Below are positions 47,320-56,355 of a stretch of DNA of 64,000 nucleotides, in pieces. The notes under the pieces were generated by a model that worked only from the letters and a program-made list of their open reading frames with translations, ran no database searches and was not told where the DNA came from. Every line of letters starts with the position of its first letter. The first letter of the stretch is position 1. Source of the stretch: Cellulophaga algicola DSM 14237 (GTDB lineage: Bacteria > Bacteroidota > Bacteroidia > Flavobacteriales > Flavobacteriaceae); NCBI RefSeq assembly GCF_000186265.1, contig NC_014934.1:4712001-4776000 (forward strand), written 5' to 3'. The position numbers and the translations under genes were made by a program.

Positions 47320-48864
47320 ATGAATAAAATAACGATACTTTGGGTAGACGATGAAATAGATTTGCTAAAATCTCATATTCTATTCTTAGAAAGTAAAAAT
47401 TACAAGGTAGTAACCTGCAAAAGCGGACAAGAAGCCCTTGAGGAAGTGGCTAAAACACGTTTTGACATTGTTTTCTTAGATGAGAACATGCCAGGAATTT
47501 CGGGCTTAGAGACATTAACAGAATTAAAAGATATAGACGCAACACTTCCTGTAGTCATGATCACTAAAAGCGAAGAAGAGTTTATCATGGACGAGGCAAT
47601 TGGATCTAAAATAGCAGATTACTTGATTAAACCTGTTAATCCTAATCAGATTTTGTTATCTCTAAAGAAAAGTTTAGACAACTCAAGATTAGTTTCTGAA
47701 AAGACAACAGCTAATTACCAGCAAGAATTTCGAAAAATAGCGATGGATTTATCCATGGTAAATTCATATACTGAATGGGCTGACTTATACAAAAAACTGA
47801 TTACCTGGGAACTAAGACTGGAAGAAATTGAAGATTCTAGCATGTTTGAAATACTAGAATCTCAAAAATCCGAAGCAAATAATCAATTTGGAAAATTTAT
47901 TGATAAAAATTACGAAGATTGGTTTACAGATGAAGATGCTCCCGTTTTATCGCACACTGTATTTAGAGAATTAATAAAACCAGAACTAAAAGACCAACCT
48001 ACCCTATTGGTTGTTGTTGATAATTTGCGTTACGATCAATGGCTTGCTTTTGAAGATACGGTGACTCCTTTTTACAAAAAGAAAAAAGAGACGAGCTATT
48101 TTAGCATCTTACCTACAGCTACCCAGTATGCAAGAAATGCTATATTTTCTGGATTAACACCTCTTGATATGGAAAAAAAATATCCAAAATGGTGGAAAAA
48201 TGACACGGAAGATGGTGGAAAAAACCTTTTTGAAGCTGAGTTCTTAGGAGAGCAATTAAAAAGATTAGGTCTAGAGTTAACATGGGAATACCACAAAATA
48301 ACTAGTTTAAAGCAAGGCAAACAATTATCTCAGAATTATAAAACTCAAAAAAAGAATGATCTAACAGTCATTGTATATAATTTTGTAGACATGCTTTCCC
48401 ATTCAAAAACAGAAATGGAAGTAATTAAAGAACTTGCTTCTAATGACAAAGCATATAGGTCACTTACTCAAAGCTGGTTTAAGAACTCACCCCTACTAGA
48501 AATCATACAACAAGCACAATCTATGGGACAAAGGCTAATTATAACCACAGACCATGGAACCATCAATGTAAAGCAACCTTCTAAGGTTGTAGGAGACAAA
48601 GACACTAGTTCCAATTTGCGTTATAAAACTGGCAGAAGTTTGTCTTATGAGAAAAAAGAAGTTTATGAAGCTACTAAACCAAGTGCTATATTTTTACCGA
48701 CTATAAATATGAGTAGCTCTTTTATATTTGCTAAGAATGATTTATTTTTTGCATACCCAAATAACTACAACCATTACGTGAGTTATTATAGAAATACCTA
48801 TCAACATGGAGGTGTTTCTTTAGAAGAAATGATCATTCCGTTTGTAGTACTAGATCCAAGATAA
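47320..48864 (+). CDS. porX: PorX-type response regulator with PglZ/alkaline-phosphatase domain
   Basis: This 514-residue protein has a receiver domain (WVDDE at 8-12, phosphoacceptor Asp54 in FLDENMPG, Lys in IKPVN) and a C-terminal PglZ-type alkaline-phosphatase-superfamily domain with VVDNLRYDQW, ARNAIFSGL and ITTDHGTI. This is the layout of PorX, which together with the kinase PorY regulates the type IX secretion system. PorX has phosphodiesterase activity on cyclic and linear oligonucleotides in studied species. In related genomes tsaE and ald usually follow; here an accessory locus of about 4.3 kb lies between. Confidence 0.93.
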   Translation: MNKITILWVDDEIDLLKSHILFLESKNYKVVTCKSGQEALEEVAKTRFDIVFLDENMPGISGLETLTELKDIDATLPVVMITKSEEEFIMDEAIGSKIADYLIKPVNPNQILLSLKKSLDNSRLVSEKTTANYQQEFRKIAMDLSMVNSYTEWADLYKKLITWELRLEEIEDSSMFEILESQKSEANNQFGKFIDKNYEDWFTDEDAPVLSHTVFRELIKPELKDQPTLLVVVDNLRYDQWLAFEDTVTPFYKKKKETSYFSILPTATQYARNAIFSGLTPLDMEKKYPKWWKNDTEDGGKNLFEAEFLGEQLKRLGLELTWEYHKITSLKQGKQLSQNYKTQKKNDLTVIVYNFVDMLSHSKTEMEVIKELASNDKAYRSLTQSWFKNSPLLEIIQQAQSMGQRLIITTDHGTINVKQPSKVVGDKDTSSNLRYKTGRSLSYEKKEVYEATKPSAIFLPTINMSSSFIFAKNDLFFAYPNNYNHYVSYYRNTYQHGGVSLEEMIIPFVVLDPR

Positions 48865-49056: not shown

Positions 49057-49434
49057 ATGTTCAAAACAGTAGATAGATTGATGCAGTTCATCAAGAATGC
49101 AGGTATGAGTGCCCGACAATTTGACCTTTCAATAGGTGCGAGTAATGGTTACACACTAAGAATGCTAAAGAACAATGCTTCGATTGGTAGTGATGTTATA
49201 GAGAATATAGTCGCTACCTATCCTAAATTAAATTTGGTTTGGTTAATAACCGGCGAAGGAGAGATGTTAAAATCTGAAGTAAATTCTTTAAATTTCAACC
49301 AATTACCGAAGGAAAAACAGTCGGAAATTGAACAAATTATTGAGCGCAAAATTAGAGAGCGCCAAGAAAGAGAGTTACGTAGTCTTTTAAAAGATGTAAC
49401 AGATGAAATTAATGCGATGGAAGACAATAATTAA
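49057..49434 (+). CDS. Small HTH protein (phage CI/XRE-like)
   Basis: This 125-residue protein has an N-terminal five-helix HTH with AGMSARQFDLSIGAS and YPKLNLVWLITGEGEML, followed by a charged coiled coil. The same organisation occurs in the protein at 62164-62622 (YPEVNLYWFLNGKGTF), so the two are paralogues. It lies between porX and the membrane-module genes and is convergent with the first of them (7 bases between stops). A role in regulating that locus is inference. Confidence 0.8.
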   Translation: MFKTVDRLMQFIKNAGMSARQFDLSIGASNGYTLRMLKNNASIGSDVIENIVATYPKLNLVWLITGEGEMLKSEVNSLNFNQLPKEKQSEIEQIIERKIRERQERELRSLLKDVTDEINAMEDNN

Positions 49435-49441
49435 TTGTCTT

Positions 49442-50650
49442 TTATAGAATTACGCCTTTATTTTCAATGGCTTTCTTAAGCTTATTTAATTGTTCAAAAT
49501 AATCCTCCTCTTTCATTGTTTCCTTTTGGGATTTTAAATCTTGAAATTGGAGGATTAATTTAGTTCCCCCCAACTGACTTTGTCCTAGTAGCTCTAAAAT
49601 CACATTGATTTTCTCATTTACCAATTCATTAAGGTATTCTGCTCTAGTTTTGTAACTAATCCATTTTGCTAGGAAATAAATTAGCACTAGCAAAGGTGCT
49701 ATTATCGGAATAGCTTTAAACACTTCTACTTCATCAAATATTGTCTCACTACCTATTACCACCTGGTAAAGCTGTAGACCTACTACACTTAGATGAATTA
49801 ACACAGCATACCTCCAAAGTTGTTTTGAAGTTACAAACCATATAAAAAGCAATACAAATATGGTAAGCTTAAAACTTATTAACCAAACATAGGTCTGAAA
49901 ATCACCTTCCGGAATTATTAATTTTAAATTAATAAGAGAAATTTCATTTAACGTAACGGGAACCCATTTATAAGAAAAAGTAACTAGTGGTAGTGATAAA
50001 ACTAAAAAAAAGAGAAACACATTTTTCGTATTTGCGTTAGCCATATATATGGTATACCTACTAGTTATATCATGAGACAAGGTCTGTAATTCTTTTAATC
50101 GTCGGTCTAGGGAAAATATAGTTTTGAACGATATATCTTGATTGTTAATCTTCCTTTGAATAGTGTCATTTTTGACCTTGTAATGCTGCAAACTAAGTAA
50201 CTCTTTTAGAATATTAATTTGTTTAACGTTAGTCGCTTCGATTCTGTACCTATTCAATTTTTTATCGATATAGAAAAGTAACATCAAATGTAGAGGAAAT
50301 ACTACAAAAGGTAATATTTCCGACAAAATCACACCGTAACCAACTACGTTAAATGCTCCGTAAACTTGATAATAACCGATAAAAATAAAAACTATCAAAG
50401 CATATTTCCACCTATCAATCGTCGTTAAAAAAATAAAAGATGCCAAAAGAGCAAGATGGATTTTAGAAAAATAATGCCACACACTGTATTCTATAGTATC
50501 AAAAAAAACTGGGGTGATTTCAAAAAAAAGTGTTTTCCATACGACCATATCTTTAAAAAAAAGATAAGCATACATAAAAATGCAAAGAATTAAAATAAAA
50601 AAAGTAACAATAACCTGAAAAGCCACCTTCTTTTTAAAATACAAATTCAT
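49442..50650 (-). CDS. Two-module membrane protein, copy A (unknown family)
   Basis: This 402-residue protein has two homologous transmembrane modules. Module 1 spans about 10-130 and includes FIFLTTIDRWKYALI. Module 2 spans about 225-345 and includes SYKWVPV, FIWFVTSKQLWRYAVLI and FDEVEVF. A cytoplasmic helical linker separates them and a coiled coil (about 345-402) closes the protein. It is homologous to copies B (decayed) and C on the same strand and to the one-module protein at 54553-55074. I recognise no named family, no catalytic residues and no signal peptide. It begins at an ATG, unlike copy C. Confidence 0.75.
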   Translation of the reverse strand: MNLYFKKKVAFQVIVTFFILILCIFMYAYLFFKDMVVWKTLFFEITPVFFDTIEYSVWHYFSKIHLALLASFIFLTTIDRWKYALIVFIFIGYYQVYGAFNVVGYGVILSEILPFVVFPLHLMLLFYIDKKLNRYRIEATNVKQINILKELLSLQHYKVKNDTIQRKINNQDISFKTIFSLDRRLKELQTLSHDITSRYTIYMANANTKNVFLFFLVLSLPLVTFSYKWVPVTLNEISLINLKLIIPEGDFQTYVWLISFKLTIFVLLFIWFVTSKQLWRYAVLIHLSVVGLQLYQVVIGSETIFDEVEVFKAIPIIAPLLVLIYFLAKWISYKTRAEYLNELVNEKINVILELLGQSQLGGTKLILQFQDLKSQKETMKEEDYFEQLNKLKKAIENKGVIL

Positions 50651-50712
50651 AGGTAAGGATTCTACACTTTATTATATGTACGTAGAATTAGGACCATTGG
50701 TATGTTTAAAAG

Positions 50713-51912
50713 TTATTCTGTTGCTATTTTTCGTTCAATAGCACCTTTTATTCTTAGAAGTTCCTGTTGATACGCTGCTTTAGATAGTTTTGATTGATTC
50801 TCTCGTAGTGAAATTAATTCTGCAACTATGCTATTTTCATTTTCCTCCATAGCATTGATAGCAGTTAATGCCTTCTGAATCTCCTGTTCTATCTCTTCAT
50901 TCAAAATATCGTTCTTGCTTTTATATTTAATGATCCTGTGTAGCAGCAGAAAGGTTATTAAAATTGGAATCATGATAGGAAGTGCAGTAATCAATTCACT
51001 CTCATCAACTTTAGACTCTGTATTATCTAAAGCTTGAGCCATTTGGAATACAGCAATAATAATATTGAAAAAAATACCGTATTTAAGAATACTCTTCGTT
51101 GTGAAAAACCACACAGATAATAACAATAGGTTAAATAATTTTAGATTAAAGTAATAGAAAAAACTTTTAGACTACTAAAGTTTGTTTCTAATTTATACCA
51201 ATATAAATCCAAAATTGCTCACTCACTCGGCATCAATCTATGAACAAAAAATAGGGATGGAGAAATCAATAAAATGAGCACTATAAGGAATTCAATTTTA
51301 CCTGAAGAAGGTTTTTGAAGTTTAACAATTGGACTATTTTTATATATTAAAATTGTTTCTAGTTCTTTTATTCTAAAGCTTAAATCACTTTCCTTTTTAT
51401 TATTTTTTTTGAAGTAAATAGGTCTCTTTTATTTATAAAGAACTTTCTTTCAACATAACTTAAATAAAACAGATTAGTTATATCGAAAACTAAAATTTTA
51501 ATTTTTTCAACAGTGTTAAATTCAAATTTCTTATCAAACTGATTGAGAAGGAAACAATATAATAATCCAACCATGATGCCAAATATGTATGAGTTAAAAT
51601 TTAAATTTAATTCAACAATAACAACCTCAGAAATACGAAAACACATATACACAAGAAGAGGTGCTAAACAATATTTCCACCTATCAGATATAGTCAGAAA
51701 CCAGACACTAACAAAAGCTATCACATAAGTTTTTTTGCAGTAGATAATAAAATTTAAATCAATAGATTCATCCATTGAAAATTTCCAAAAAAATAAATTG
51801 AAAACTTTAACATCAGGTATCAATAAATAAGAATAAATAATAAGGGCAAACAAAATACACATATTGCCAATATTAGGTTCAGTTTAAGATGTTTCCTTTG
51901 AGGGATTTTCAA
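50713..51912 (-). pseudogene. Decayed two-module membrane protein, copy B
   Basis: About 1200 bases, the same length as the intact copies, but spread over three frames. The first part, from TTG 51912, reads LKIPQRKHLKLNL and aligns with the start of copy C. A shift near 51860 leads to YSYLLIP. A shift at an A8 tract near 51415 leads to SDLSFRIKELE. An in-frame TGA follows LMPSE near 51225, and a final shift leads to YYFNLKLF and LLSVWFFTTK, after which the frame is open to 50713 with DESELITALPIMIPILITFLLLHR. Three shifts and a stop show real decay rather than one reading error. Confidence 0.85.
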
Positions 51913-51938
51913 AATAAAATTAGAGTTTAAAAACTGAT

Positions 51939-53162
51939 TTAATCCACAAGGCTATTCTGAAGCTTAGATTTTAACGCTTTCAGCCGCCTAAAATAATCTT
52001 CTTTGTCTAGAATATTCTTATTATTTCTAAGAAGTATTAATTCTTGAATTAATTTATTCTCATTATTCTCCAAAGTATTTAATTCTGTCAAAACTTGTTG
52101 AATCTCCTGCTCTATCTCTTCATTTAAAATTTCATTTTTACTTTTGTATTTTATGGTTTTATGCAGCAACAAAAAGGTTATTAAAATAGGAATCATTATT
52201 GGTAGAACCGCAAACAATTCATTTTCGTCAAGTTTAGTTGTCGTATTGTCTAAAACTTGAACCATTTGAAAAATTGCTATAATTAAATTAAACAGTATTC
52301 CATATTTTAAAATAGTCTTTGTAGTAAAAAACCATATGCTAAGCAAATAAATATGAAAAAATTTAATACTAAAATAGTATAAAAATAAATTTAAAGTAAG
52401 AAATTGTGTGTCATAAACAATAGATCCAAATCTAATGACGCTATCTAAATCATCAGGTATTAATTTGTAGATTTTTAATATAATTGGAGCCATAATTAAT
52501 AAAGCTGCAATGAGATATTCTATTTTAGAATTAAACCTCTTTATCAGATGCAAATAAATAAAGCTACCATTATATGCTAAATAAGATTCTAAGGTTTTTA
52601 CTTTAAAGTTGAGATCATTTCTCTCAATACTTACCGTATTATTAAAGTCCTGTTCCTCTATAAGTTTTTGCTTTAAATTAACAATCTTCTTTTCATTAGA
52701 ATAGTTAAATAATAACTTAATAATATCAAAAGTTATCATATGAATGGTATTCGCGAAATAAATTTTTGACTTCCCATGTACTAAATGCAATAAAATGGAG
52801 TAAAAAACACCCATACCAATGCCTACCGCAACATAATTTTCTTGAAGCCCATATTCTATTTCTAATATCGAGTATAATTGAAGGATGACTAAAACAATAG
52901 AAGGAAGTAAAAAATAGCGCCACCAATCTGCAATGGTAAGAAACCAAATAGTTATAAATAAAATTATATAAACTTTTTGAAAAAGAAAAAAAAGAAAAAA
53001 ACGAGCATTCTTAAACGCTTCTACTTTATACTGAAAAATGTAAAGATCTAGGTATTGATTTTCTGGAATTAATAGGTAAGCATACAGGATAAGTGGTAAA
53101 CAAAATACAATAACAGCTAAAAGCAAATTCAGCTTTAGTAATTTCTTATGGAGAATTTTCAA
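51939..53162 (-). CDS. Two-module membrane protein, copy C (unknown family)
   Basis: This 407-residue protein has module 1 at about 8-150 (YAYLLIPENQ, IWFLTIADWWRYFLL) and module 2 at about 215-350 (IYKLIPDDLD, LLSIWFFTTKTILKYGI, LDENELF), joined by a helical linker, with a C-terminal coiled coil. Both modules share the pattern Y-x-L-I-P, a roughly 30-residue gap, then IWF-x-T and a Gln after the third helix, so the protein arose by internal duplication. The start is a TTG at 53162; an upstream ATG is out of frame. Copy B also begins with TTG at the same place. It is divergent from tsaE by 58 bases. Confidence 0.75.
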   Translation of the reverse strand: MKILHKKLLKLNLLLAVIVFCLPLILYAYLLIPENQYLDLYIFQYKVEAFKNARFFLFFLFQKVYIILFITIWFLTIADWWRYFLLPSIVLVILQLYSILEIEYGLQENYVAVGIGMGVFYSILLHLVHGKSKIYFANTIHMITFDIIKLLFNYSNEKKIVNLKQKLIEEQDFNNTVSIERNDLNFKVKTLESYLAYNGSFIYLHLIKRFNSKIEYLIAALLIMAPIILKIYKLIPDDLDSVIRFGSIVYDTQFLTLNLFLYYFSIKFFHIYLLSIWFFTTKTILKYGILFNLIIAIFQMVQVLDNTTTKLDENELFAVLPIMIPILITFLLLHKTIKYKSKNEILNEEIEQEIQQVLTELNTLENNENKLIQELILLRNNKNILDKEDYFRRLKALKSKLQNSLVD

Positions 53163-53220: not shown

Positions 53221-53634
53221 ATGAAAAAGGAATACAAGCAAGAGGAAATTAAAGAAATAGCCAAGTTCATTATAGAAAACTCGCCTTCTAAAAAAATATG
53301 CTTTCATGGTGAAATGGGAGCTGGTAAAACCACCTTAATAAAAGCTATTGTAAAAGAACTTGGAGGACAAGGGGAAGCAAGTAGTCCCACTTTTGGAATA
53401 GTGAATGAATATAGTGATGCTCAAAACAATACTTTAGCCTATCATTTTGATTTTTATAGATTAAATGATGAATCTGAAGCTTTAGATTTTGGCGTGGAAG
53501 ATTACTTGTACTCTAATTATTGGGTATTCATGGAATGGCCCGATAAATTACCCAATTTAATTCCTGAAGATGCCACTCATATTTCTATAACAATTATAAA
53601 TAAGACTACAAGGATTATTGAAATTCCCTCATAA
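53221..53634 (+). CDS. tsaE: tRNA threonylcarbamoyladenosine biosynthesis ATPase
   Basis: This 137-residue ATPase supports TsaBD in forming t6A37 in tRNA. Walker A is HGEMGAGKTTLIKAI (about 31-45), SSPTFGIVNEY follows, and YRLNDESEA and FMEWPDKLP complete the family pattern. A terminator-like hairpin follows. Confidence 0.95.
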   Translation: MKKEYKQEEIKEIAKFIIENSPSKKICFHGEMGAGKTTLIKAIVKELGGQGEASSPTFGIVNEYSDAQNNTLAYHFDFYRLNDESEALDFGVEDYLYSNYWVFMEWPDKLPNLIPEDATHISITIINKTTRIIEIPS

Positions 53635-53698: not shown

Positions 53699-53805
53699 AG
53701 TATGTTTTTTCTGTTAAAAAAAATTTTTATCGTTAATATGTAGGTTTTTAAAGTTAAAGTGTTTAATTTAACATTGTAAGAAAGTATAATACGTATATAT
53801 TTTCC

Positions 53806-53813
53806 TACATTTG
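53806..53813 (+). promoter_or_regulatory. Likely -7 element of the small-lipoprotein array
   Basis: TACATTTG matches TAnnTTTG exactly, 41 bases before the first array start codon. The nearest TTG (53774-53776) is 29 bases upstream, further than usual for a -33 element. Confidence 0.45.
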
Positions 53814-53854
53814 TTTTTTTGACATTAAATTATAACCAAACTAAAATTATTACG

Positions 53855-54011
53855 ATGAACACAAAAAAAATCCCTTCTAGCAATCGCTGCAATCGCTTTA
53901 TTCGCTTTATCTTCTTGCACTTCTACAAGCTCAAATGATGATGATTCTCTATATGAAACTAATAGTATTGAAAAAAAATTGATTAAGCCTAGACCAGGTT
54001 ATGGAGGTTAG
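53855..54011 (+). pseudogene. Small lipoprotein, array copy 1, out of frame at an A8 tract
   Basis: The unit has ACA followed by seven further A (A8 in total), where copies 2 and 3 have A7. From the ATG it therefore reads only 27 residues (MNTKKIPSSN...), ending at a TGA. With one A removed it encodes the same 51-residue lipoprotein as its neighbours, with Thr after the lipobox Cys instead of Ser. The rest of the copy is intact and shows no other damage. It may be a slippage-switched gene, a very recent loss or a homopolymer sequencing error. Confidence 0.8.
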
Positions 54012-54073
54012 TCCTTTTTTTTTTACTCAAAGTTTATATCAAAATCAAATAAAAACCAACTAAAATTATTACG

Positions 54074-54229
54074 ATGAACACAAAAAAATCCTTCCTAGCA
54101 ATCGCAGCAATCGCATTATTCGCATTATCTTCTTGTTCTTCTACAAGCTCAAATGATGATGATTCATTATATGAAACTAATAGTATTGAGAAAAAATTGA
54201 TTAAGCCTAGACCAGGTTATGGAGGTTAG
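54074..54229 (+). CDS. 51-residue lipoprotein, array copy 2
   Basis: The protein begins MNTKKSFLAIAAIALFA and has the lipobox LSSC with Cys21 as the acylated residue. The 31-residue mature part begins CSSTSSNDDD and ends EKKLIKPRPGYGG. The acidic run shortly after the Cys resembles the lipoprotein export signal of Bacteroidota, which sends lipoproteins to the cell surface. Codon changes relative to copies 1 and 3 are almost all silent, which supports real coding. No family is recognised. The array is followed by a one-module membrane protein related to those near tsaE. Confidence 0.82.
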   Translation: MNTKKSFLAIAAIALFALSSCSSTSSNDDDSLYETNSIEKKLIKPRPGYGG

Positions 54230-54284
54230 TCCTTTTTTTTACTCAAAGTTTATATCAAAATAAAAACCAACTAAAATTATTACG

Positions 54285-54440
54285 ATGAACACAAAAAAAT
54301 CCCTTCTAGCAATCGCTGCAATCACATTATTCGCATTATCTTCTTGTTCTTCTACAAGCTCAAATGATGATGATTCACTATATGAAACAAATAGTATTGA
54401 GAAAAAATTGATTAAGCCTAGACCAGGTTATGGAGGTTAG
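54285..54440 (+). CDS. 51-residue lipoprotein, array copy 3
   Basis: It differs from copy 2 by Leu for Phe at position 7 and Thr for Ala at 14, both in the signal peptide. The mature part from Cys21, with SSNDDD and the PRPGYGG terminus, is identical. The stop is followed 27 bases later by the array terminator. The identical mature peptide in the copies suggests that dosage matters or that duplication is very recent. Confidence 0.82.
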   Translation: MNTKKSLLAIAAITLFALSSCSSTSSNDDDSLYETNSIEKKLIKPRPGYGG

Positions 54441-54466
54441 TCCTAGTTTTACTTAAAAATAGTATG

Positions 54467-54498
54467 AGCAACTTATTTAAAAGTAAGTTGCTTTTTTT
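54467..54498 (+). terminator. Terminator of the lipoprotein array
   Basis: A perfect 9-bp stem AGCAACTTA / TAAGTTGCT with an 8-base loop followed by T6 and more. It separates the array from the one-module membrane protein gene. Confidence 0.85.
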
Positions 54499-54552
54499 AT
54501 ACAATATTTTACTGTTTTTAAAGTTTGTTTTAATGATTCCATTAGATTGTCG

Positions 54553-55074
54553 ATGAAAAAAAATAAAGCCACCATTAAAAAAAAATTATTAATCGAAGGT
54601 TTATTAGCCCTACTTGTTTCACTTTCAGTTTTGATTTTTTATTCTTATAAATACATACCACAGGGAGAAGAATATACATCCTACAGGTTTTTTGGAATTA
54701 TGATAACAGAAAATGGCTATGGTGAAGTTTATGTTGCCATGTACTATTATTTAGCCAAAATTGTTCCTCTATACTTACTGGTAGTATGGTTTATCACTTG
54801 TAAAAATTGGTGGTATCATGCTATTCTAATACCAATAGCCATGTATGCTTTCCAACTATTTGTTGCCATATATGGTGAGTCTAGTAAAGTTGACGAAAAC
54901 GAGCTACTCTATTTATTGGGTGTCTGTATGATAATCATACCCATTGTATATTTTATCCGTGTAAAATTATTTGATAAACATGTACACGGCATAGATTTAG
55001 ATGCTATTGATGCTGAACTGAAAGAATATAAAGAACGAGAACGCTTGCAAAAAGAAAAAGACCTAACAAGTTAA
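54553..55074 (+). CDS. One-module membrane protein related to copies A-C
   Basis: This 173-residue protein has four hydrophobic segments and a charged coiled-coil tail. It repeats the module pattern of its larger relatives: SYKYIPQGEE, then VVWFITCKNWWYHAILIPI, then a Gln in the third helix, VDENELLYLL and a last helix. The homology to module 2 of copy C is plain (DENEL, IIPI). It is placed directly after the small-lipoprotein array but behind a terminator. The start is ATG 54553; a TTG two codons earlier is possible. Function unknown. Confidence 0.78.
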   Translation: MKKNKATIKKKLLIEGLLALLVSLSVLIFYSYKYIPQGEEYTSYRFFGIMITENGYGEVYVAMYYYLAKIVPLYLLVVWFITCKNWWYHAILIPIAMYAFQLFVAIYGESSKVDENELLYLLGVCMIIIPIVYFIRVKLFDKHVHGIDLDAIDAELKEYKERERLQKEKDLTS

Positions 55075-55155: not shown

Positions 55156-56355
55156 ATGGATAAACCAACATCACCCTTTAGCAAACAACAGTTACTTCCG
55201 CAAGAAGAAACCCTAGAAATATTACGCCAAAAAGGAGAACTTTTCATTGGAATTCCTAAAGAAAATCAATACCAAGAAAAACGTATTTGTTTAACTCCTG
55301 ATGCCGTAAATGCAATTACCGCAAATGGTCATCGGGTATTATTAGAAGCTGGTGCCGGAGAAGGTGCTAACTTTTCGGATATAGAATACACCAATGCAGG
55401 TGCAGAAATTACAAGAGATACCAAAAAAGTTTTTGGTTGTACTATTCTACTTAAAGTAGAACCACCTACGCTAGCGGAATTAGAATTAATGAACCCGCAG
55501 ACCACAATTATCTCTGCACTTCAAATAAAAACACAGTCTAAAAAATATTTTGAAACACTTGCAAAAAAGCGATTAACAGCTATTGCCTTTGAATACATCA
55601 TGGATGATGACGGCAAATACCCTGCCGTACGCTCTTTAAGTGAAATTGCCGGAATTTCTTCCGTGCTTATTGCTTCAGAAATAATGTCTAACACTAATAA
55701 AGGAAACGGACTCATGTTTGGTAACATAAGTGGTGTTCCTCCAGTAGAAGTAGTTATTATAGGTGCTGGTACTGTTGGAGAGTTTGCAGCACGTTCTGCT
55801 ATTGGCTTGGGTGCAAACGTTAAAATATTTGACAACTCTATCACCAAACTTAGAAACATACAGGCACACTTAAGGCAAACCGTCTATACTTCTACTATTC
55901 AGCCTAAAAATTTACTGAAAGCACTAAAGCGTTGTGACGTCGCCATCGGTGCTACTCGAGGAAAAGACAGAGCTCCTGTGGTTGTTTCACAAACTATGGT
56001 AGAGCACATGAAAAAAGGTGCCGTAATTATAGATGTTAGCATTGATATGGGTGGTTGCTTTGAAACTAGTGAAGTTACCAGCCATGATAAACCAACCTTA
56101 GAAAAATTTGGTGTTGTTCATTATGCAGTACCCAATATCCCTTCTAGATATCCAAAAACAGCATCTATTTCTATTAGTAATATTTTTACCCCTTATTTAT
56201 TAAAGATTGGTGAAGATGGCGGAGTAGAAAATGCACTTCGATTTGATAAAGGCCTTAGAAACGGACTTTATTTTTACAGAGGCATACTTACCAATAAAAC
56301 CGTAGGCGAATGGTTTGACCTTTCGTACAACGATATTAATTTTCTTATTTTTTAA
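55156..56355 (+). CDS. ald: Alanine dehydrogenase
   Basis: This 399-residue enzyme interconverts alanine and pyruvate with NAD and ammonia. The N-terminal substrate domain has GIPKENQYQEKRICLTPDAV with the conserved Arg and Lys; the NAD domain has VVIIGAGTVGEFAARSA; VDVSIDMGGCFETS-like residues (IDVSIDMGGC) follow. It is somewhat longer than the classical enzyme, with an N-terminal extension of about 30 residues that is usual in Bacteroidota. Start at ATG 55156; a TTG frame start at 55117 would add 13 hydrophobic residues. A palindrome lies at 55093-55114. Confidence 0.92.
   Translation: MDKPTSPFSKQQLLPQEETLEILRQKGELFIGIPKENQYQEKRICLTPDAVNAITANGHRVLLEAGAGEGANFSDIEYTNAGAEITRDTKKVFGCTILLKVEPPTLAELELMNPQTTIISALQIKTQSKKYFETLAKKRLTAIAFEYIMDDDGKYPAVRSLSEIAGISSVLIASEIMSNTNKGNGLMFGNISGVPPVEVVIIGAGTVGEFAARSAIGLGANVKIFDNSITKLRNIQAHLRQTVYTSTIQPKNLLKALKRCDVAIGATRGKDRAPVVVSQTMVEHMKKGAVIIDVSIDMGGCFETSEVTSHDKPTLEKFGVVHYAVPNIPSRYPKTASISISNIFTPYLLKIGEDGGVENALRFDKGLRNGLYFYRGILTNKTVGEWFDLSYNDINFLIF

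Follow-up and report, generated by a model that had tools for sequence, protein, structure and literature searches.

Across much of the Flavobacteriaceae, one chromosomal slot holds a gene for a tiny peptide precursor, predicted to be exported, beside a gene for a four-transmembrane (4-TM) protein that we call mod. The two genes almost always occur together, the C-terminal tail of the peptide is kept by selection and changes from type to type in step with the N-terminal membrane domain of mod, and both are swapped as a block between conserved flanking genes. On balance, these patterns suggest that peptide array and mod form a peptide–receptor specificity locus of a pherotype-like kind, which would serve self-recognition or signaling.

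A tandem array of peptide genes in Cellulophaga algicola

The window that we analyzed, a 64-kb stretch at bases 4,712,001–4,776,000 of the Cellulophaga algicola genome, contains three direct repeats of 211–218 bp each that span positions 53827–54444. Tandem Repeats Finder describes this array with a period of 211, 2.9 copies and 93% matches, and its score of 1061 is the top of five rows reported for the window; the copies are spaced by 218 and then 211 bp. An earlier sequence-only reading of the same DNA had recognized three tandem direct repeats, and this description is borne out. The same reading took the repeats for an array of 51-residue lipoproteins, which is correct for copies 2 and 3 but not for copy 1, which is frameshifted as sequenced.

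53855..54011, + strand: peptide gene copy 1, with a frame break shortly behind its start; another frame reads to PRPGYGG and a stop
54074..54229, + strand: peptide gene copy 2, intact, 51-aa lipoprotein precursor
54285..54440, + strand: peptide gene copy 3, intact, 51-aa lipoprotein precursor

Copies 2 and 3 each encode an LSSC lipobox, an NDDD acidic run and a protein end of the sequence IEKKLIKPRPGYGG. In the LES surface-export signal, acidic residues directly follow the lipidated Cys; in the translated window peptide, the acidic run starts about 7 residues past it. The ATG frame of copy 1 (ATG at 53855) stops after 27 codons because the A-run behind the start is not as long as it is in copies 2 and 3 or exceeds it, and a second frame offers 50 open codons that end in a tail identical to theirs. 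Copy 1 may be a pseudogene, a slippage-dependent gene or the product of a sequencing error; the published C. algicola genome was determined by 454 and Illumina sequencing with a stated error rate of less than 1 in 100,000 (PMC3072087).

Changes between the copies are mostly silent, as the earlier reading had noted, with pS exceeding pN in all three comparisons (copies 1–2: 0.226/0.010 and copies 1–3: 0.191/0.020, both over 44 codons; copies 2–3: 0.115/0.017). This dominance of silent changes also upholds the claim of selection on the peptide. When the whole genome was searched with a single sequence, three strong matches came up, all within the array (E 8.8e-26 or lower), followed by a next-best match at E 0.0035, and a profile search detected weaker paralogous tiny lipoproteins elsewhere in the genome. 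The window peptide matched no curated Pfam or NCBIfam family at cut-off and no PADLOC family; PHROGs gave weak matches (E 0.003–0.004).

One chromosomal slot for peptide and mod

The array is followed by the mod gene, and these are the sole genes between TsaE and alanine dehydrogenase (Ald) in the window. PorX, further upstream, served as the phylogenetic yardstick.

47320..48864, + strand: PorX response regulator, upstream neighbor (NCBIfam T9SS_RR_PorX, E 8.7e-252)
53221..53634, + strand: TsaE, upstream flank (Pfam TsaE, E 1.6e-34; synteny)
54553..55074, + strand: mod, 4-TM membrane protein of 173 aa; the N-terminal membrane domain, unlike the cytoplasmic C-terminus, co-varies with the tail
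55156..56355, + strand: alanine dehydrogenase, downstream flank (Pfam AlaDh_PNT_C, E 2.8e-60, and AlaDh_PNT_N, E 7e-34; NCBIfam alaDH, 307 bits, under its cut-off of 392)

From 60 loci around strong peptide matches we read the order PorX, TsaE, peptide, mod, Ald, a small ORF, proline dehydrogenase and AroB. Mod is present in 56 of these loci, and the remaining four (L077, L113, L121, L124) are other loci. These 60 were drawn by peptide score, and only loci drawn by Ald or by mod count for co-occurrence. Among 80 Ald-drawn loci, 74 contain both genes and none contains one gene alone; three have neither in the stretch read, with the dehydrogenase straight after TsaE in L166 and L198 and TsaE not found in L200, and three are unreadable (in one, a run of N begins behind the initial codons of a peptide-like ORF; in two, the contig ends short). 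Loci drawn by weak mod matches contain the peptide in 39 of 40 cases, the exception being L222, which has mod and no room for a peptide. The sequence-only reading had staked its proposal beforehand on peptide and module genes occurring together elsewhere, and they almost always do: the peptide is present at 170 of the 172 mod loci read, with one locus unreadable and one (L222) lacking it. In this count the peptide of L186, cut by a contig end with its tail half remaining, is taken as present, and loci do not equal genomes, the draws being overlapping (e.g., L099 and L126) and comprising 134 distinct PorX sequences.

A single-sequence peptide search at E ≤ 0.01 reached 44 of 299 family genomes, C. 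algicola included. A profile built from 19 peptides matched 307 of 397 genomes, a count that we do not use because the weak matches include other small lipoproteins. Mod itself was found in 274 of 397 family genomes (E ≤ 1e-10), and in an order-wide sample it matched 9 of 196 genomes at E ≤ 1e-5, eight of the nine from Flavobacteriaceae.

The gap between TsaE and Ald measures 0.9–1.7 kb in 69 of the 74 Ald-drawn loci having TsaE, which fits little beyond peptide and mod, so that no exporter gene is conserved there. Extra DNA lies in the slot of L138, L180, L184 and L074; in L184 the dehydrogenase is about 9 kb away from the pair, and L074 has both a regulator and a two-module gene between TsaE and the peptide. 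Peptide and mod also duplicate as pairs, since two genomes of one genus contain three tandem pairs with three different tails each. A single stop interrupts each of 7 mod matches among the matches listed, one of them at the three-pair locus L120.

Between PorX and TsaE the window carries an optional cassette (49057–53162) of a regulator and convergent two-module genes:

49057..49434, + strand: HTH-type regulator, optional cassette (PHROG transcriptional regulator, E 8e-6; no Pfam match)
49442..50650, − strand: two-module membrane protein, optional
50713..51862, − strand: two-module gene remnant (match interrupted by 3 stops)
51939..53162, − strand: two-module membrane protein with two mod domains, optional

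Among 152 PorX–TsaE intervals, the regulator occurs in 20, module proteins in 19 and both in 19. Two-module genes number four in C. baltica, and C. algicola has two together with the remnant; the two two-module proteins and the regulator of the window matched no PADLOC family. The earlier reading had proposed neighboring membrane-module proteins as candidate partners or receptors of the peptide. The partner that finds support is the downstream single-module protein (54553–55074); the opposite-strand two-module proteins are optional. Loci L172 and L177 are about 91–99% identical in most aligned windows, with the first 4.2 kb unaligned, and differ strongly not just in the peptide–mod island but also in the PorX–TsaE interval, where L177 has a module protein and L172 the regulator only. 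In L254, from another family of the order, a two-module protein lies beside a small lipoprotein-like ORF on the opposite strand, and a further ORF resembles the HTH-type regulator by eye.

Anatomy and selection of the peptide

The signal peptide is conserved, and in many members an acidic EDDxLYE spacer comes after it. The tails are of the type [IV][DE][KR]xx[IV]xxPxxG or are other short basic sequences. By eye, the combination of a signal-peptide-like N-terminus and a short variable tail looks like the layout of a small secreted propeptide. About 138 of 186 peptides have a lipobox (134 found by script, 4 added by eye), and the approximately 48 lipobox-less peptides, for example those of Flagellimonas, keep a plain signal peptide. 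On the PorX tree of 134 loci the lipobox state changes at least eight times, four of these changes being forced by well-supported branches. The sequence-only reading had regarded the surface lipoprotein as the essence of the system; this does not hold, because several clades lack the lipobox Cys and have an ordinary-looking signal peptide instead, so that the lipid anchor appears dispensable.

Whole-gene repeats are found in C. algicola (three), L076 (six), L084 (four) and L180 (five), where 14 IDRTKIKKLPSNG-type units were counted by eye over the five genes. Repeats within one protein occur in Pricia (L204), with six near-identical VDRTKIRTSN units. Multiplied units were scored in just 28 of 134 loci by a script counter that overcounts repeats, and dose amplification is therefore not general.

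Codon comparisons point to purifying selection on the tails, both within genomes and within tail types. Five units of L204 show pooled synonymous differences of 0.69 per site and non-synonymous differences of 0.02, a figure lowered by the picking of units by pattern. For tandem whole genes, pS/pN amounts to 0.091/0.012 in L076 (all six copies), 0.227/0.022 in L084 (three of four copies), 0.086/0.020 in L180 (four of five copies) and 0.42/0.13 in L119 (two of three genes). The L119 genes, which are members of separate pairs, have diverged; the low pN among tandem genes implies that the tail is usually kept over long times within a genome. Between loci, ten pairs chosen for having the same tail gave a pN/pS of 0.019/0.358 (an eleventh pair was excluded because its sequences were of unequal length).

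Co-variation and block exchange of tail and mod

The earlier reading had singled out a fixed Gly-rich tail. PRPGYGG is indeed constant within this one C. algicola genome, but the tail is not fixed beyond it: the sister species C. baltica ends in RTEIPIPDEKNKN where C. algicola has EKKLIKPRPGYGG, at identities of 94% for PorX, 97% for Ald and 80% for mod, and tails vary across the family. The view of the tail as a processing or recognition motif is borne out to the extent that the tail is the specific part of the peptide; it varies in step with the membrane partner.

The clearest case of exchange is the pair of Cytophaga sp. FL35 (L187) and Euzebyella saccharophila (L194), which share 96–100% DNA identity from PorX through Ald outside the exchanged island. 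Identity is 99% for PorX, 98% for TsaE and 98% for the 5′ region. The tail reaches just 38% and the N-terminal part of mod 55%, after which the C-terminal part of mod is again at 90% and Ald at 98%. The break lies inside the peptide gene, directly past the DDD codons, with signal peptide and early spacer fully identical. Over this 21-kb locus the median window identity is 92%, and three other 300-base windows of 71 fall below 80%. Twelve more pairs with different tails show a dip of tail and mod N-terminal part relative to PorX, of varying depth, and in L135/L136 the C-terminal DNA of mod differs as well. In six control pairs that share a tail type, the tail is free of this dip; in one of them (L208/L210) identity is lower over mod, but not below that of its own TsaE.

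Tail and N-terminal membrane domain of mod vary together as discrete types, as judged from a comparison set with one genome per species. Among 65 pairs at a PorX distance below 0.06, 43 have the same tail and the same mod, 22 differ in both and none is discordant, with cut-offs for tail and mod that were chosen after the distribution was known. In 21 disjoint pairs, tail distance correlates with that of the mod membrane domain (Spearman 0.90, p 2.5e-8); the corresponding value for PorX and tail is 0.41 (p 0.06). With PorX held constant, partial Mantel correlations with the tail are 0.45 for TM1, 0.43 for loop 1, 0.31 for TM2, 0.07 for TM3, 0.28 for loop 2, 0.17 for TM4 and −0.06 for the cytoplasmic C-terminus (299 permutations; p 0.003, the floor, for all except TM3, 0.010, and the C-terminus, 0.957). 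This analysis covers 131 of 134 loci, L119 and L120 being left out for their three pairs each and L160 by a filter. The dip at TM3 and the rise at loop 2 are not expected from DNA distance alone, with the caveat that TM3 is the most conserved part of mod. The signal peptide also correlates with mod (0.38 for the whole protein, 0.22 for the C-terminus), so not all of the co-variation reflects tail recognition. Since tail and mod N-terminus are neighbors in the DNA, part of it could be linkage in a recombining locus.

In a nearest-neighbor test, the closest relative by mod N-terminus has the closer tail in 77 loci and the closest by PorX in 21 (p 1e-8), with 6 ties and 27 loci where both are the same neighbor; 21 of 98 informative loci thus run contrary. 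With the C-terminus of mod, the counts are 47 and 34. We also picked 19 loci to show recurring tails, 17 of which have a same-type partner. For all 17 the best match of the mod N-terminus lies within the tail type and, except for the pair Zobellia barbeyronii–uliginosa, in another genus; the best PorX match is of the same type in just 3 of the 15 such loci with PorX.

The membrane protein mod

Invariant residues of mod (K69, W79, W86, W87, Y88, Q101, R136, D141, D148, E155) sit largely in TM2, TM3 and the cytoplasmic tail. The window protein has no curated Pfam or NCBIfam family at cut-off and no PADLOC or PHROG match. A Pfam search with 68 mod proteins returned 24 families at E ≤ 0.1, all sub-threshold and none a kinase or other output domain; the commonest was DUF2070, in 19 of 68 members with a best E of 8e-4. 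No protease family appeared for these proteins or for the window protein. The PDB contains no sequence relative at E ≤ 1, and no clear structural relative was found. Among open-license PMC papers we found no prior description of the peptide–mod locus.

Promoter and terminator-like signals

The following signals lie around the array:

53707..53761, + strand: three direct-repeat operator-like boxes (15-mers at 53707, 53726 and 53747; PWM scores 4.2, 7.5 and 6.0)
53806..53813, + strand: −7 promoter element TACATTTG (TAnnTTTG) before copy 1 (motif match)
54466..54499, + strand: terminator-like hairpin between array and mod (stem 54466–54493, then a T-run; consensus match only)

We take TAnnTTTG at 53806..53813 to be a Bacteroidetes-type −7 element. 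It occurs in 117 of 142 non-redundant upstream regions, mostly 35–53 nt before the ATG, and somewhere in 60 of 123 control regions upstream of the dehydrogenase, so that its fixed position is the telling part. The 15-mer TTTTTCGATRAAATG, fitted on the same sequences in which it was counted, occurs in 95 of the 142 regions, 74 of which have two copies or more. Neighboring boxes are spaced by 19–21 bp in 132 of 145 cases, and the last box lies 37–38 or 59–60 bp before TAnnTTTG in 53 of 72 measurable cases. In the window the steps are 19 and 21 bp and the last box lies 59 bp before the −7 element; two of the boxes exceed the PWM threshold of 5.5, and the first passes a lowered threshold only. Shuffled sequences contain a box in 20 of 142 cases, without such spacing. 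The box is characteristic of one clade, with 89 of 103 regions (L066–L205 and the window) as compared to 6 of 39 (L206–L245; none with two). With a promoter before copy 1 and a hairpin before mod, the peptide genes may be expressed in excess of the mod gene.

LytTR regulators bind direct or inverted repeats of 9–11 nt with 11–13 nt between them, and the E. coli member YpdB binds GGCATTTCAT (PMC4847170). The complement of this site resembles the GATGAAATGC core of the peptide-promoter boxes. We regard this resemblance to LytTR sites as a putative lead rather than a demonstration; C. algicola has 14 LytTR genes, none at the peptide–mod locus. Ladders of the same promoter box also precede genes for short proteins that have the C-terminal sorting domain of type IX secretion (L280:2104-2433, L296, L297, L302; three genomes), without TAnnTTTG at the usual phase. 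The sorting domain is a Pfam match for L280 and was assigned by eye for L296, L297 and L302.

A possible mechanism and its rivals

In the mechanism that we consider, the signal peptide would export the precursor, which from its sequence should be lipidated in C. algicola, and gene copies or units within one protein would, in some lineages, increase the amount of an identical tail. The C-terminal unit of about 12–15 residues (here IEKKLIKPRPGYGG) would be the specificity determinant. Attached or released, it would be recognized by mod through TM1 and TM2, the first periplasmic loop and the second loop, as co-variation suggests. Mod would be the cognate partner of the tail, most likely its receptor, and its conserved cytoplasmic tail might pass on the state to an output. 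In one clade, a regulator at the promoter direct repeats could close a feedback loop. Because the alleles of the tail and of the membrane domain of mod move together as one block, with conserved genes on either side, close relatives can differ in type. With neither a Pfam kinase or output domain nor a clear structural relative, mod remains a putative receptor.

The same adjacent pair with matched polymorphism could instead encode kin exclusion, with the tail as an antagonistic toxin, mod as the matching immunity protein and allele swaps driven by an arms race. Block swapping and tandem pairs with different tails would fit this scenario, in which two-module proteins could serve as extra immunity genes. 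We consider it unlikely, because the pair, rather than being scattered, is found at a single chromosomal site in much of the family (mod occurs in 274 of 397 genomes), no exporter gene is conserved (TsaE–Ald gap of 0.9–1.7 kb, 69 of 74 loci), neither peptide, mod, two-module proteins nor regulator has a PADLOC family and mod has no PHROG, and just one mod without peptide (L222) was found among 172 loci. A peptide and its processing enzyme would also be expected to co-vary, AgrB being the processing partner of AgrD, and the invariant polar and aromatic residues of mod would suit a maturation or export partner that trims or moves the tail while the real receptor is encoded elsewhere. This is less probable still, given that no protease family was found in Pfam and that the invariant residues lie mostly in TM2, TM3 and the cytoplasmic tail, whereas co-variation peaks in TM1 and loop 1.

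Other small envelope lipoproteins, too, are tiny, carry a lipobox and come in tandem copies. The peptide could be a structural or stress lipoprotein with a tail that evolves fast under weak constraint and whose co-variation with mod would be linkage only, as tail and mod N-terminus are neighbors in the DNA. Against this explanation, which we rank as the least probable, stand the purifying selection on tails within a type (pN/pS 0.019/0.358), at least eight changes of lipobox state on the PorX tree with the pairing retained, and the recurrence of types across genera with matching mod N-termini in the picked loci. Signaling or self-recognition is the reading that we favor over toxin–immunity, a processing partner and a structural lipoprotein with linkage, as somewhat more likely than not. 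Signaling in particular is favored because of the conserved slot, the near-universal pairing and the repeat-bearing promoter in one clade, and because a paralogous tiny lipoprotein of C. algicola sits between a LytTR regulator and a TPR histidine kinase. More tentative, with slightly more doubt than confidence on our part, is the wider claim of a signaling or self-recognition system in a large part of the Flavobacteriaceae, with a lipoprotein or secreted pro-peptide, a new family of kinase-less 4-TM receptors, autocontrol through promoter repeats in one clade, and pherotypes exchanged as blocks between species and genera.

Comparison with known systems

By analogy, the peptide–mod locus may work like a pherotype locus. 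As in ComQXPA and agr, a polymorphic peptide and a polymorphic membrane partner domain lie between conserved flanks; a histidine-kinase partner and a dedicated modifying or processing enzyme are absent from the locus. Without a kinase domain in mod or a conserved processing gene, the locus is not a member of either system. In Bacillus, trees of comQ and gyrA disagree at the polymorphic ComQXPA locus (PMC4408185), and here mod N-terminus and PorX disagree likewise, with a secreted peptide and its partner gene forming a polymorphic block. Unlike ComQXPA, the present locus has no isoprenyl transferase, no histidine kinase domain in mod and no adjacent ComA, and it belongs to a Gram-negative family with a lipoprotein or ordinary secreted precursor and unit repeats in some members. 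Peptide and membrane protein also co-vary in staphylococcal agr. The promoter repeats described here, with steps of 19–21 bp, have a period like that of LytTR-controlled systems, but mod has no Pfam match to the proteins of agr or such systems.

Yeast alpha-factor is made from a precursor with several copies of one peptide and known processing sites; repeated units within one precursor are a shared feature, although the yeast system is eukaryotic. In enterococcal lipoprotein-derived pheromones the active peptide comes from the signal sequence. One of them, cAD1, is a pheromone peptide released from a lipoprotein (PMC7074142); here a lipobox is present in about 138 of 186 peptides and absent in about 48, and swap and co-variation suggest that the variable, selected part is the C-terminal tail. 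Entericidins and Lpp are tiny lipoproteins that are sometimes encoded in tandem. We know of no variable tail matched to a membrane partner among them, and they differ from the peptide–mod family in that the lipid anchor of the latter appears dispensable. Partial ComX-like matches that lack the key Trp have been described for five B. fragilis strains, which is a different case, and signaling roles have been proposed for Bacteroidales RiPPs (PMC10352776). We found no description of a peptide pheromone system at work in Bacteroidota among open-license PMC papers.

If the favored reading is true, strain-typed peptide signals or self-recognition tags are in use throughout a large marine family. The slot next to PorX and TsaE would then allow a genome to be typed, its peptide to be predicted and cross-talk to be probed with synthetic 13-residue peptides. 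Confirmation of the receptor role could make the locus a new kind of system rather than a pherotype variant. Even if its role is kin exclusion, nature has set up a clean experiment with the block swap, on which membrane residues recognize which tail.

Other tiny lipoproteins

A 50-aa tiny lipoprotein ending in DEDQLYVNSPIACDDCGHVTTKGN is encoded at L270:3295-3447 (G000:C1, minus strand). It has the gene of a LytTR-domain protein on one side and, on the other, that of a TPR histidine kinase, after which a receiver-domain protein is encoded, and by eye the same gene order surrounds a tiny lipoprotein in C. baltica (L272). This locus is a candidate for a second peptide system. At L271:2591-3179 (G000:C1, minus strand), a 49-aa lipoprotein ending in NIYEQQAIDRDEVKMGDV is directly followed by a membrane protein of about 163–173 aa that has no Pfam match at E ≤ 0.01. 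Relatives of this membrane protein were found by tblastn in L273 (80%), L113 (37%) and L077 (31%), each beside a tiny lipoprotein.
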